Origin: Nereocystis luetkeana
Taxonomy: Eukaryota; Sar; Phaeophyceae; Laminariales; Laminariaceae
Reading direction: 5' to 3'
Length of the DNA: 64,000 nt
Assembly (NCBI GenBank): GCA_031213475.1
Contig: JARUPZ010000020.1
Location: forward strand, 4,241,813-4,305,812
The notes under the pieces are model-generated. The model made no database searches. It was not told where the DNA came from and saw only the letters and a program-made list of their open reading frames with translations. The first letter of the stretch is position 1. Each line of letters opens with the position of its first letter. Made by a program: the position numbers and the translations under genes. This document shows positions 24,301 to 59,900 of the stretch, one piece after another.

Positions 24301-27300
24301 TTTCCGGCTCGAACAAAACTACGATTATAATTCCCAAGTGTTTCCCCCGCCAAAACGGGGGGTGAGTTGTAACACCGAGGCTAAGGGGGGGGGGGGGGGG
24401 GGTTGGCACCCCCCCCCTACATCCCTGAATAGCCGACGTACTCCGTCCCGGCATTGCAGGGATGCGAGGGTCTATGGCCATGCGACTACCGCCGCGCTTG
24501 ACAATTAATACAACCCCCACGTACTGTCCCTAGGTTCATGCTGCCTTCAAACCTAACACTGGCGTCGTCGGCAGGATGTTAGAAAGGGATGCGTAGTCGA
24601 TGGTCACATACATGACTGTCAGGCAAGTAAAAAACGAGTACCCCTCCCCCCCCCCCCTCAAGGTAAAACCGTCACCCACCCACCCACCCACCCACCCACC
24701 CACCCACCCACGCACGCACCTGGTACTTGTTCTTGGAGTTGAAGGGGATCTTGAACAGGTTGGGGTTGGCAGAGCGGTACTCGTCCACGTCGCGGAAGGG
24801 CTGGCAGAACTTGATCATCGCGATCTCGGAGGCGTTTCCCACGGCCTTCCACGCGACAACCTACCGGCATGTTTTTATGTCGGGAAGGGACGGAGGCAGG
24901 GAGGCAGGGGGAGAGAGAGAGAGGGAGGGAAGGGGGGGAAGGGGGAGGGAGGGAGGGGCAAGGTTCCGACGTCAAACAACAAACGTTCCACGGAGTTTAT
25001 TTAACCCCTCTATAACTGTACACGAGCCCATTTATGGACTTAACCGATGTGGGGATACTAGGAAAGGTAACCAACTATCTGGTAAACCTTACAAGTAAAA
25101 AACTACGTGAAACTAGAGGAACAAAACGCAGTCAATCAAGACAAGTTTCAAGAGCGCGCTACCTGGTACATCGCAAATCGCGTTGAGTTCGCACACGGGC
25201 GCGACCGTTTTTCAGCTCTCGATTTTTTCCGAATTAGGGGAAGGTTGGTTGACAGTAAGTACCGACCAACAACCATGTTTTTTCCCCCCCAAAAAAATCT
25301 GATCGAGAGATCGAGAGAGAGCCTTCCGAAAATACGGTGTTCCACCTTGTAGCACCCTCACCACTATCGTCGAGACAAAAAACGAGCGCTACGTATATAG
25401 TCTAGGAAGCACATTTTTTCCAGAAATTTGACATTCACATACATATTGAGGGTCATTCTTATCGGAGAGCTTTTTTTCCCAATTTTTCGACATTTTTGTC
25501 GCGCAATTTTTTAATCTTCCATATTTTCCTGTTTTTTTTTACCAAATATTGGAATGTTAACGAACTTGATATTTTTGCTTCTGGAGAATTTCACGAACAT
25601 TGACAGAACGCCTCCGTATATCGATGCATATCTCCAATTATTTCAAAACTTTGGGAATTTTGGAAAAAACGCTCTCCGATAAGAATGAGCCTGAATTGTT
25701 TCCCGGTGGTCACTTCTTTTCAGGAGACACAAAAACAGATTTGCCGTAAAGTTCTGTTTCAGACGGATCCAACCAACGTGTCAGATTTTTTTTTTCCGTC
25801 TCTGCGTCCGAGTAAAATCCGTTTTTCCTCCGACAAAACTTGTCTCAAGATTTTCGAGGTCGACACAGCAGCAGTTGCCATCGTATACCAGGTATGTACT
25901 ATTACGGGGGGCCATAGTTAACAGGACCAAATATTGTAAGTAAAAATGGTTAAACATATAGGTTTTTATGTATACCATAGGTCCTGTTAACTATGGTCCC
26001 CCGTAATATTACGGGGGGGCATAGCAAATAGGATCAAATATTGTTATTACGGGGGACCATAGTTAATAGAACCAAATATAGTCAGTAAAAATGGTTAAAT
26101 ATTATACCTGGTAAGTTTTTATGTATACCATACGGTAGGTCCTATTAACTATGGTCCCCCGTAATAGTAAAATGATCGAAATATTTATTACTATCACTGG
26201 TATTTGTCTGTACCGTAGGTCCTATTTAATATGCCCCCCTCCCGTAATATACCGCTGCCACGCTGTCACTCTCTCACCTCGATCGTCGATCCGTCACCCT
26301 GGACCTTCATCTTCTTGAAAGGCACGGGTCCATTCTTGTCCGACTTGGAGTCCTCCTGGAACAGAGACACGTTGCAGAGGGTTGCGCACCTTGTCAGGCC
26401 CTTGAACCCGGGGTCCTTCTCGTCGTAGGTGAAGTTTCCCTTGGTGAACGACGACGCGCAGTCCTGAGAGCAAAAAAAAAGCGGCGTGTTTTGTGCGGGA
26501 GGGGGGGGGGGGAGGGAGAGTGGGTGAGAGGGACGGAAGGAAATAAGGAGAGAGGGAGAGAGAGAGGGGGGGGGGGGGGGGGGGGGCACAACATGCCTTG
26601 ATACATACCAGGTATGTGTGTACGTACTGTACAACGAACGAACGCCCTATGATGCGGTGACGAAAACAAAAGATCACTACACCGAAAAAAAAAAAGAACT
26701 AAAAAACGGACAAACCAAGAAAAAAAACACGTCGCGGTTTATTTATTTTTTATAATAAAGGAAAGGCAGAAACCACTTCCTCCCTTTACCAGTAGCAACA
26801 AGCAAAACAGGGGTTTTTTTTCGGGGGGGGGGGGGGGCAAAACGGATCGCACCGACAGAGAACAAGAAAGGAGCAAAAACGAACAAGACGTGGAAGAAAA
26901 ACAAAAAAATAAGCCATTCTCGGCTCGGCAAAAGCACAAAAGTACAAACCTCGATGTGCGTTCCGTCCTCTTGGCCGTAGACGATCTGCGCCACGGTCAT
27001 AATGTTCTGAGTCAAGGTGCCCGTCTTGTCCGAGCAGATGCAAGATGTCGACCCGAGAGTCTCCACGCCCTCGAGGTTCTTGACAAGAACCTGAGACAGC
27101 GATGGCGCAAGCAACCGCGAAAAACAAAATGCAGCAAAACGACAGCGTCAGCAATAGCAACGGAGAAAATGATCGCACGCGACAAATGAGTGCGCTCCCC
27201 CCGCCCCCCCCCCCCCTATGGTCATACGACTACGGCCATGATGAGATCGAGTACATCTCTCCTATCGAGTACACCCCCCGCCCCCCCCCCCCCCCCGCCC

Positions 27301-56903: not shown

Positions 56904-59900
56904 CTGCGCGTGCGTGGGGGGGCGGGGAGTTGGGGGGGGGGGGAGGGGGGGAGGGAGATGGGTTATGGGTGGGGGATCGGTGTTCAAGATTTAATGTAGG
57001 GGTACAAGGCAGCGAGGTCCGAAGGCGAACCAGACCGCAATCGCGAGAATCAGCCAGAAACGTTTTCTCGGGCGCGCGAGGCACCGCCTTGAGTACGTAC
57101 ACAGGCCAACATACTATTGAAACCAATCGCTGACAGTTCGCGGCAAAAGCCTGATCGAGAGCCCGCCCCCCTTGGGCACCACGCAGACACACGCGTACGC
57201 ACACGCAAGGTAAGCATAGGACAAAACAGCGCCGGCAGCGAGTGCATGATCCGCCGCTTGGACGTCCCCTCCACCTGGCACCCGTAAACCTCTGACGCAT
57301 TCATGAAGCCTCCAGCTTTGGAAAACAGAGCGCCCACCCCAACCCCCCCCCCCCCCCCCCCCCCATAAGATTAGCAAAAAGTTTTTTATGTAATATATGG
57401 AAACAACGTAATGAGCGCCCAATTGTTGGAGGTGTCTCTATTAGGAGTAGGAACGGTGCTCCGTCTCGAAAGGGATGGGTGGTCAATGGTCAAATGACTA
57501 AGGCAAGCAACAAATGAGTACGCCCCCCCCCCCCCCCGGTCTACGCCCCCCCGCAAACCTGCCCCAGATATCGGGCAAACACGCCATTCATACGTAGATG
57601 ATCGCAATTAGACCCCTTGGCTGTCCCCCACCCTACACAAGATAAATGTAACGCTCTGGACGGAAGTATAAGGACCGTTTAGACCCTAATATGAAGACCA
57701 AGCGGAGCTTATATTGACGGACACCCAGAGTTATGCGTAGCTCCAGGTACCATTGTTCAAGTTTATGGGGTGCTTGCGACAATCCAATATGGTAAAAGAA
57801 CAAAAAACTGAGCTAGACAAAACGTGAGGAGCTGATAGGGTACGAAAATAGATACGTGAATCAGAAGTTGCTCCGTTTGAAAAAAAACAACCCACGAGAG
57901 TTACTCAACCAGAGAATACTCAGGTTAAAACAATCATGTTGGTCACTTTTCCCCCAGAGCACTTTAGTTTCGTCTGGGTAGGGATTCGCTTTTATGTGCC
58001 AGGTAGGGAAATACACCACGACAATCGAGTAAACCCCCCCCCCGCCCCGCTCCGTCTCGAAAGGGATGTGTGGTCAATGGTCAAATGACCTAAGGCAAGC
58101 AACAAAAAAGTACGCCCCCCCTCCCCCCCCCGCCCGCCACCTCCCGAAGGCTGCATAGACATATGGGCGTTGGTCCAGCTTCGACAAAATGGTTGATTTT
58201 TTTTTGCCTACAAACACAACCCCCGACCCTCTAACCCCGGCCGCGAGGAAAAAATGTCGGATTGAAGATGCGGCGAGGATATAGTGTTACGGGGGACCAT
58301 AGTTAATAGGACCAAATATTGTTGGTAGAAATGCTTAAATATATACCAGGTAGGTGTTTTATGTATACCACAGGTCCTATTAACTATGGTCCCCCGTATT
58401 CGTAGCGTGGACCACGAACGGTTGTATTCGAACCGCGGGCTGAGTGGTCTAGCAGGCTGTGTCGTGAGTTCGAACCTCGTCGACGGCTTCGTAATTTGTT
58501 GTGTTCGAGCGATTTAGGCGCGCTGGAGATAAAACGCGAATGATGGTGATAGTGCGCCTCGCTATACACAAGAGCATATTTTTGCGAGGGGAGGGCCCCG
58601 GAGATCGCTGTTACAAAGTCGACGGCATTCCGCGCGTTCTCAAAAACATACGTTTTGTTGATTGTATAGCACTGCCCAGGCTAGACCACTCAGTCGATGC
58701 CGACTGGACCAAGCCACAAGATACCAGTCCCCCCCCCCCCCCCCCCCCCTCCCCCTACCAATTCACTCGACGCTGATAACCACACGCAAGCAAGGCCGCC
58801 TCACAAGGCGGTTCTCAGTAGGATGCACCTCGGCCCTTCATGCGACTCGCTGAACACCACCTCACGTTTCGCTTCGCCTCGCGCTCGGTGCGAGCAACGT
58901 CTTGCCCGGTCGGTCAAAACCCGACGTGCTCCGTCCCGGGATTGTAGGGACGCGAGGGTCCGTGGCCACGCGACTAAGGCCATGCATGAACACGATATGA
59001 GTACACCTCCTCCCGAGGGCTGCATAGACGTACAGTCGGCGTAAGGCCTCTTTCAAGGGACCCTCGCAGTGCATCCGGGCATAGAGGTCACTTAGATACC
59101 AACGCCCCTATCAGAGTTCGTACCCGCTCCTCGCCATCAGCATTGATCATCACTCACTTGTTCTTTCCAGCTCAACTCGTACTACTTTAGTATTACGGGG
59201 GACCATAGTAAATAGGACCATAAGTTGTAGTAAAGATGAGGAAATATATAGGTTTTTGTGTGTACCGTAGGTCCTATTTACTACGGTCCCCCGTAAAGGA
59301 GAGGTTTTACAACCCTCAACGATCTTCTGAACAATCCGTGGGGTCCGTTCCTTCTCCCCCCCGCGGCACGCGCCCTCATGTTTTGTCGCGCATGGGGTTC
59401 AGCATCCCCACCGCTCGTCGATTTCCATCGGATGTTGCTAAAACTCAGGCTCTCGCGCTTTCGGCTCATCCTTTTTTTCGTTGCAAGAAAAAAAACCCTG
59501 CGAGTATGCATGCGCTCGGTGAAACTCGAACCCACGAAATTGATCTTACTGTAGTAGGCACGCGGACCACCCACCAAGCCACCGGGGACGCCGGCTGGGG
59601 CAAATGTAATGGTCAGCAGAAACTTCGAGGTCCCTTGTACACCGTTTTCGCTTTTCAGAGAGTCCTTCAATGAGGGCTAGCTACTCTACAGACCTTGGCC
59701 AAGCCTCGACAACACCGTCAAAATACCCCCCACGTTAAACACTACCCCCAACCCCAACCCCGACCGACCGCCTGCAAATTTCTCGGAATCATCCTCCCCC
59801 CTCCCCCCCGCCCCCCCCCGCCCCACCTCTCTCTTTTTCCCCTCACCGACGCAGGCTAGGATAGAGATATCGCACTTTTTTTGCCTTTCGAGGCAATATT

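Follow-up and report, generated by a model that had tools for sequence, protein, structure and literature searches.

The genome of the kelp Nereocystis luetkeana, a brown alga, is strewn with copies of a nine-letter palindromic word, TACCWGGTA, which is described here from a 64,000-nucleotide stretch of contig JARUPZ010000020.1 (assembly GCA_031213475.1, positions 4,241,813 to 4,305,812), hereafter the window. Where its origin can be tested, the word proves to be derived, an insertion of 7 bp at a TA dinucleotide. It is very probably the footprint left behind by a cut-and-paste DNA transposon of Tc1/mariner-like behaviour, of which few or no copies are left.

The window contains 36 exact copies of the word (21 TACCAGGTA and 15 TACCTGGTA), whereas 100 dinucleotide shuffles give 0.44 on average and never more than 3. 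A first-pass annotation of the window had put the number above 30 with less than one expected, which is borne out, and the positions that it quoted (26105, 32308, 32327, 41984 and 58344, as well as the 10-mer TACCCTGGTA at 32293-32302) are all exact. The genome-wide frequency, which it had proposed as a check, is far above the control: the assembly of 465,085,209 bases in 1,987 contigs holds 182,395 copies, or 392 per Mb, against 1,744 for the same word read backwards, a ratio of 105. Further measurements come from the window together with 33 loci of the same assembly (L001-L033). The 275-kb sample comprises the window and L001-L028, minus L005 and L006, both of which overlap L004; the 332-kb sample, 0.07% of the genome, adds L029-L033. 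Since L001-L008 were picked for containing TACCWGGTA, densities in the sample are slightly high, while the whole-genome counts are unaffected. A second-order model of the sample expects 1.4 occurrences per word, and 62 are observed. The flanks of separate copies are unrelated. The over-representation is real, and the observation holds.

That the word arises by insertion was seen in two kinds of comparison. When CCWGGTA was deleted in silico and paralogues were sought that align without a gap across the junction, an empty paralogue was found for 16 of 121 sites, with TA as the commonest junction dinucleotide in 13 of them. A stricter test demanded the gapless junction but not the letters TA, with other TA-N5-TA words as controls. 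TACCWGGTA had an empty paralogue at 9 of 130 sites and a filled one at 2 (both of these also with an empty one), whereas the controls were empty at 38 and filled at 204 of 1,251 sites (Fisher p = 5e-6). The second comparison is an alignment of ten copies of family A, a miniature inverted-repeat transposable element (MITE). In three copies (26105, 58344 and L026:7056), the scar occupies one and the same TA of ...AAATATA-TA-GG..., and at the first two of these, as had been claimed, other copies read plain TA. The copy at 32262-32405 holds three scar words, likewise claimed as insertions, and these lie inside two 12-column insertions relative to the other copies. A similar claim for position 41984 in repeat R holds in part: its paralogues lack the word, but the empty site reads TGCACACGTG and offers no clean TA. 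Taken together, the paralogue tests and the family A alignment agree with the first-pass annotation that the word is a 7-bp gain at TA and not ancestral. An indel census of self-alignments is too small to be of use, with one CCAGGTA event, counted twice, and 7 TTAATA-type places among 542 insertion places. The recurrently scarred TA of family A (26105, 58344, L026:7056 and L031:8053) may be a hot target or mark a scarred subfamily.

Since CCWGG is palindromic, the standard scar cannot tell whether the element ended in CCAG or in CCTG, but variant scars can. In the 332-kb sample, TACCAGGGTA is found 15 times against about 1 expected, and its mirror TACCTGGGTA once against about 1. Likewise, there are 35 copies of TACCAGTA (about 10 expected) and 17 of its mirror TACCTGTA (about 14), and 4 of TACCATGGTA (0.3 expected) with none of its mirror TACCTAGGTA. 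These expectations derive from the second-order model and are doubled for non-palindromic words, for which they are printed halved. The 275-kb count has the same polarity, and the 7-nt forms are too few to tell (three TACCAGGGGTA, one TACCTGGGGTA). Genome-wide, TACCAGGGTA occurs 11,422 times against 409 for its control. Seven of these copies form a tandem array with an exact spacing of 528 bp (G000:C1:1305185-1308353). An enrichment confined to the CCAG-type variants, with none in their CCTG mirrors, points to ends that read CCAG(G), and the prediction from the scar sequences is an element of the form TA/CCAG(G)...(C)CTGG/TA, the slashes marking its boundaries, with a stagger of 4-5 nt. Of the CCAGG...CCTGG ends with a 5-nt stagger originally proposed, the CCAG part is thus supported by the one-sided variants, while a 4-nt stagger fits equally well.

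In the proposed mechanism, the element would insert at an AT-rich palindromic site centred on TA, with a duplication of the TA that the scar implies. At excision, the transposase would cut 4 or 5 nt inside each end, and the twin 3' overhangs, CCAG(G), would anneal around an A:A or T:T mismatch. A CCAGG overhang would pair over 5 nt and a CCAG overhang over 3, with one mismatch in each case, and both would yield CCWGG. Repair would then fix either A or T, giving CCAGG or CCTGG between two TAs, so that a near 1:1 ratio of the centre base is predicted, as is observed (A:T = 59:65). Each jump would convert TA to TACCWGGTA and, with few or no residents remaining, the genome would serve as a record of the jumps.

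The target can be read from the restored empty sites (n = 124), which have a symmetric preference for A/T at -7, A at -6, A at -3, T at -2 and A/G over T at -1. Neighbouring scars contribute part of the signal at -7 and -6. The 74 of the 124 sites without a scar-like neighbour read ATA-TA-TAT with A/T at -7 (chi-square 52-57 at -1, -2 and -7). An AT-rich palindromic surround of the TA is typical of Tc1/mariner targets, and it is present here. The scar itself is a good target: there are 8 perfect tandem pairs sharing one TA in 275 kb, and among 50 places listed out of 9,894, TACCAGGTACCTGGTA accounts for 22.

A second scar word acts as an internal control. The 8-mer TATTAATA occurs 78 times in the sample against 1.9 expected, with unrelated flanks in the 40 copies listed, and in the strict paralogue test it was empty at 7 and filled at 1 of 82 sites. 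Its target preference is T-3 A-2 C-1. Family A insertions have the same preference, the bases preceding TA at 34 ends being T in 24, A in 24 and C in 18. It is a MITE of about 110-130 bp, nearly palindromic, with ends TTACGGGGG, the terminal inverted repeat (TIR) TTACGGGGGACCATAG and a TA target-site duplication (outer flanks T in 34/34 and A in 30/34). A model of the family gives 84 matches over both strands in 275 kb, corresponding to about half as many copies, and 23 copies plus 3 short part-matches in the window. Because of the common target preference, TATTAATA is read as the scar of family A: a 3-nt TTA overhang would anneal to its twin via TA, giving TTAA and hence TATTAATA. The genome thus appears to collect the scars of a TA-targeting element that is still visible, and with TATTAATA traceable to a resident MITE, such scarring probably does take place here. 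The CCWGG scars have a different target preference from TATTAATA and are therefore attributed to another maker.

Several results weigh against a transposon as the source of the CCWGG scars, among them the failure to see it. No recurrent CCAG-ended element with inverted repeats beside TA and no occupied site was seen in 332 kb, in keeping with the first-pass annotation, which had found no element with CCAGG...CCTGG ends in its view. Among 319 TACCAG end pairs within 4 kb of each other in this sample, 32 match at 12 or more of 20 positions, mostly as two scars, and none is recurrent. Of 107 pairs of long inverted repeats in the sample, the sole one with TACCAG-type arms is a tandem scar pair in L022. 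The 204 TACCAG half-sites in 332 kb also reveal no recurrent element, and recurrent extensions such as TACCAGGCGGATTAGC belong to ordinary repeats. Paired TACC ends matching at 13 or more of 20 positions number 61 in 275 kb, within the 27-95 of control starts, and 83 of 20,303 compared in 332 kb, of which 25 begin CCAG. Leaving aside pairs composed of scars, the best TACCAG pair is one 104-bp stretch (L004:2587-2690) with imperfect inverted ends TACCAGTGC...GCACTGGTA (14/20). The domain PF13358 gave 0 matches in the genome, with 30 candidates scored and the control found in 3 of 14 genomes; because only first-look candidates are scored and introns can break matches, this null counts only provisionally against a typical Tc1/IS630 gene. 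By the rule of three, finding none in 332 kb sets an upper bound of about 4,200 copies genome-wide, still fewer than one per 40 scars. Such rarity is compatible with a strictly non-replicative transposon that leaves one scar per jump.

Other points on the same side concern the scars themselves. At 3 of the 16 sites with a gapless empty paralogue (26105, L008:1501 and L016:8093), TA is not the commonest empty dinucleotide; the 26105 copy has one extra T next to the junction relative to most of its paralogues. At least 3 of the 13 TA-positive sites sit in TA-rich simple sequence. Of the 9 strict sites, 4 belong to a single repeat, family A, so that the number of events is below what the counts imply. 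Filled paralogues also exist for L026:7056 and L031:8053, and some scars may thus have multiplied together with the repeat that hosts them. The count of the mirror word TACCTGGGTA covers the sample only. The full fill-in products TACCAGCTGGTA and TACCAGGCCTGGTA were found neither in 332 kb nor at the 50 places listed of 9,894, so that the stagger is not read directly, although their absence is expected if annealing dominates. Finally, the CCWGG footprint is 5 nt, against the 2-4 bp given for Tc1/mariner in passages of PMC7913693, although a 4-nt overhang with a 3-nt overlap would also yield 5.

The alternative that survives best overlaps with the reading preferred here. The scars might come from a TA-using transposon outside Tc1/mariner, with another DDE transposase or of another class, an origin to which we give a real but clearly minor chance. 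A footprint longer than the range quoted in PMC7913693 would suit such a maker, as would the failure to find PF13358. Since neither an element nor a transposase has been seen, the maker is not filed as a member of Tc1/mariner; judged from sequence, it would work like one and is a candidate for membership only. The AT-rich palindromic surround of the TA, as a Tc1/mariner trait, argues against an outside origin.

Less probable, and in our view doubtful, is the boldest reading, a "nano-insertion" process in which an enzyme of the host, either a domesticated transposase or one for template-dependent repair, opens the TA and itself supplies CCWGGTA, so that no transposon is ever involved. The great uniformity of the product would fit this, as would the 133 scars without a recurrent element in 332 kb and the lack of PF13358. 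However, the roughly equal use of A and T at the centre and the one-sided CCAG variants fit the annealing of twin ends and have no obvious cause in templated addition, and the same genome contains a scar word matched to a real MITE.

A selected palindromic site, bound by a protein or methylated at CCWGG and kept and multiplied by selection, is improbable. The word is short, scattered and very frequent, in which it resembles HIP1, the iterated palindrome of cyanobacteria that is likewise short, very frequent and scattered. In contrast to what would be expected of such a site, the kelp word arises, where testable, through a gain of 7 bp at TA rather than point mutation, which disfavours maintenance by selection, and it nests in itself and in MITEs. 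Its near-forms resemble neutral decay: there are 124 exact and 135 one-mismatch words, compared with 23-39 one-mismatch words for five unrelated controls and 61 and 105 for two frequent ones. An artefact of assembly or composition, whether a common word in a TA/GTA-rich genome or a piece of a longer repeat, might be suspected from the poly-G, TA and GTA words in which the sample is rich, but it is refuted by the shuffles, the second-order model, the reversed word and the unrelated flanks, and its chance is negligible. An element consisting of the scar alone and spreading by copying is a less likely possibility that has gained no support.

The excision footprint of a Tc1/mariner-like transposon therefore stands as the preferred explanation. 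The excess of about 100 one-mismatch words corresponds to a rough average of 9% change per site, which suggests prolonged activity rather than just a recent burst. On balance, we also favour a further step, that this is a ghost element known from its scars alone: strictly non-replicative, reduced to few copies or extinct, having jumped heritably on the order of 100,000 times or more within a single algal lineage, and with its ends, stagger and target readable from the scars.

Sleeping Beauty leaves the footprint TA-C(A/T)G-TA as a result of mismatch annealing. According to passages of PMC7827188, Sleeping Beauty and mariner place their nicks 3 nt within the element, which leaves 3-nt 3' overhangs, and Sleeping Beauty footprints are identical to the overhang. 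The likeness to the kelp scars lies in the TA site and in a footprint that would come from annealed 3' overhangs. However, Sleeping Beauty is a known element with a stagger and footprint of 3 nt, whereas in the kelp the footprint is 5 nt, the element was not found, and there are about 182,000 natural copies. Non-canonical footprints are known, according to passages of PMC3770610. The mariner element Mos1 of Drosophila has the inverted terminal repeat (ITR) CCAGGTGTACAAGTAGGGAATGTCGGTT, with CCAGG ends and TA flanks, as predicted for the scar maker, but with a 3-nt overhang (passages of PMC3419177). No recurrent Mos1-like ITR is present among the 204 TACCAG half-sites.

Further words may represent additional scar types. 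TACAGCAGTA / TACTGCTGTA occur at 28 sites in 332 kb (13 vs 0.4 per word), including window positions 866, 1668, 33058, 34173, 34831, 55926 and 63327, with unrelated flanks and the preference T-3 A-2 [C/G]-1; this is possibly a third scar type. Moderate enrichment at TA is also seen for TACWGTA (52 vs 21.9 per word), with a TAC preference like that of family A, and for TACTCGTA/TACGAGTA (27 vs 5.3 per word), both possible scar types. A family A copy reads ACCATACGGTAGG at 26126-26137 where others read ACCATAGG, a change of TA to TACGGTA with a 3-nt core insertion.

Other repeats include a palindromic MITE (window 28351-28441, 35930-36027 and 48883-48971; also in L013 and L014) that has the ends CCCTTTTAGGACCGCAGTCCCG and in many cases TTAA flanks, a resemblance to piggyBac-type MITEs, and an inverted-repeat element with ends near TCATTCTTATCGGAGAGC (window 25445-25696; L016:8054-8172; L024:3833-4067). 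Among coding sequences, the window has a cation-transporting ATPase C-terminal domain exon (PF00689) at 16328-16864 on the minus strand and a light-harvesting open reading frame at 4107-4838; the light-harvesting protein of the window shares 96% identity with an Ectocarpus protein and 95% with one from Saccharina, which marks the host as a brown alga.

Table 1. Scar words and family A copies discussed in the text, by position in the window.
Feature	Position	Strand	Basis
TATTAATA, first of 22 window copies, assigned to family A MITE	883..890	.	
Scar TACCAGGTA	960..968	.	exact word
Scar TACCTGGTA	1071..1079	.	exact word
Scar TACCTGGTA	1211..1219	.	exact word
Scar TACCTGGTA	3806..3814	.	exact word
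Scar TACCAGGTA	3890..3898	.	exact word
Variant scar TACCCTGGTA	5672..5681	.	
Variant scar TACCCTGGTA	13874..13883	.	
Family A MITE copy, palindromic, TIR TTACGGGGGACCATAG, TA duplication; probable TATTAATA source	14395..14521	.	
Scar TACCAGGTA	14625..14633	.	exact word
Scar TACCAGGTA	16037..16045	.	exact word
Scar TACCTGGTA	17983..17991	.	exact word
Overlapping scar pair TACCAGGTACCTGGTA, one common TA	18881..18896	.	exact words
Scar TACCTGGTA	19196..19204	.	exact word
Scar TACCAGGTA	21387..21395	.	exact word
Scar TACCTGGTA	22959..22967	.	exact word
Scar TACCTGGTA	25160..25168	.	exact word
Scar TACCAGGTA	25886..25894	.	exact word
Family A MITE copy with CCWGG scar	26044..26171	.	
Scar TACCTGGTA in family A MITE copy; plain TA in other copies	26105..26113	.	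exact word, alignment
Scar TACCAGGTA	26606..26614	.	exact word
Scar TACCAGGTA	27338..27346	.	exact word
Scar TACCTGGTA	28120..28128	.	exact word
Family A MITE copy with three scar words	32262..32405	.	
Variant scar TACCCTGGTA in family A copy	32293..32302	.	alignment
Scar TACCTGGTA in family A copy	32308..32316	.	exact word, paralogues, alignment
Scar TACCAGGTA in family A copy	32327..32335	.	exact word, alignment
Scar TACCAGGTA	33399..33407	.	exact word
Overlapping scar pair TACCAGGTACCAGGTA, one common TA	36346..36361	.	exact words
Scar TACCAGGTA	37282..37290	.	exact word
Variant scar TACCAGGGTA	37392..37401	.	
Scar TACCAGGTA	37488..37496	.	exact word
Overlapping scar pair TACCAGGTACCTGGTA, one common TA	37575..37590	.	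exact words
Scar TACCAGGTA in repeat R unit; paralogues without word, empty site not clean TA	41984..41992	.	
Variant scar TACCAGGGTA	42941..42950	.	
Scar TACCAGGTA	43027..43035	.	exact word
Scar TACCAGGTA, one empty-site paralogue (TA)	43679..43687	.	exact word, paralogue tests
Scar TACCAGGTA	44876..44884	.	exact word
Scar TACCTGGTA	45032..45040	.	exact word
Scar TACCTGGTA	45428..45436	.	exact word
Variant scar TACCAGGGTA	49234..49243	.	
Scar TACCTGGTA	49289..49297	.	exact word
TATTAATA, last of 22 window copies	49648..49655	.	
Family A MITE copy with CCWGG scar	58283..58412	.	
Scar TACCAGGTA in family A copy; TA empty in 34/42 gapless paralogue alignments	58344..58352	.	
Variant scar TACCAGGGTA	61095..61104	.	

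Tc1/mariner elements have been described in a brown alga: passages of PMC12477816 report 17 families with 11,912 copies in Ectocarpus, mostly miniature inverted-repeat elements, and family A, a TA-flanked MITE, is of the same general type. The CCWGG word is not described in section 5 and other passages of that paper, and a word-start search of its main text finds neither "footprint" nor "excision". As words, TACCAGGTA, TACCTGGTA and TACCWGGTA were not found in the open-access literature searched, nor is a report of brown-algal footprints among the matches listed there. Footprints as such are a known kind. None of the open-access matches listed describes a genome-wide record on this scale whose maker is predicted but unseen.

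Excision footprints are usually seen singly in the laboratory, whereas this genome keeps about 180,000 of them, 392 per Mb. At such a density, target choice, stagger, repair products and age can all be measured from the scars in the element's absence, and its ends can be predicted. For the brown alga itself, the finding means that a defined process adds 7-bp insertions at its TA sites; unless recognised, this will confuse studies of indels, introns and regulatory motifs.

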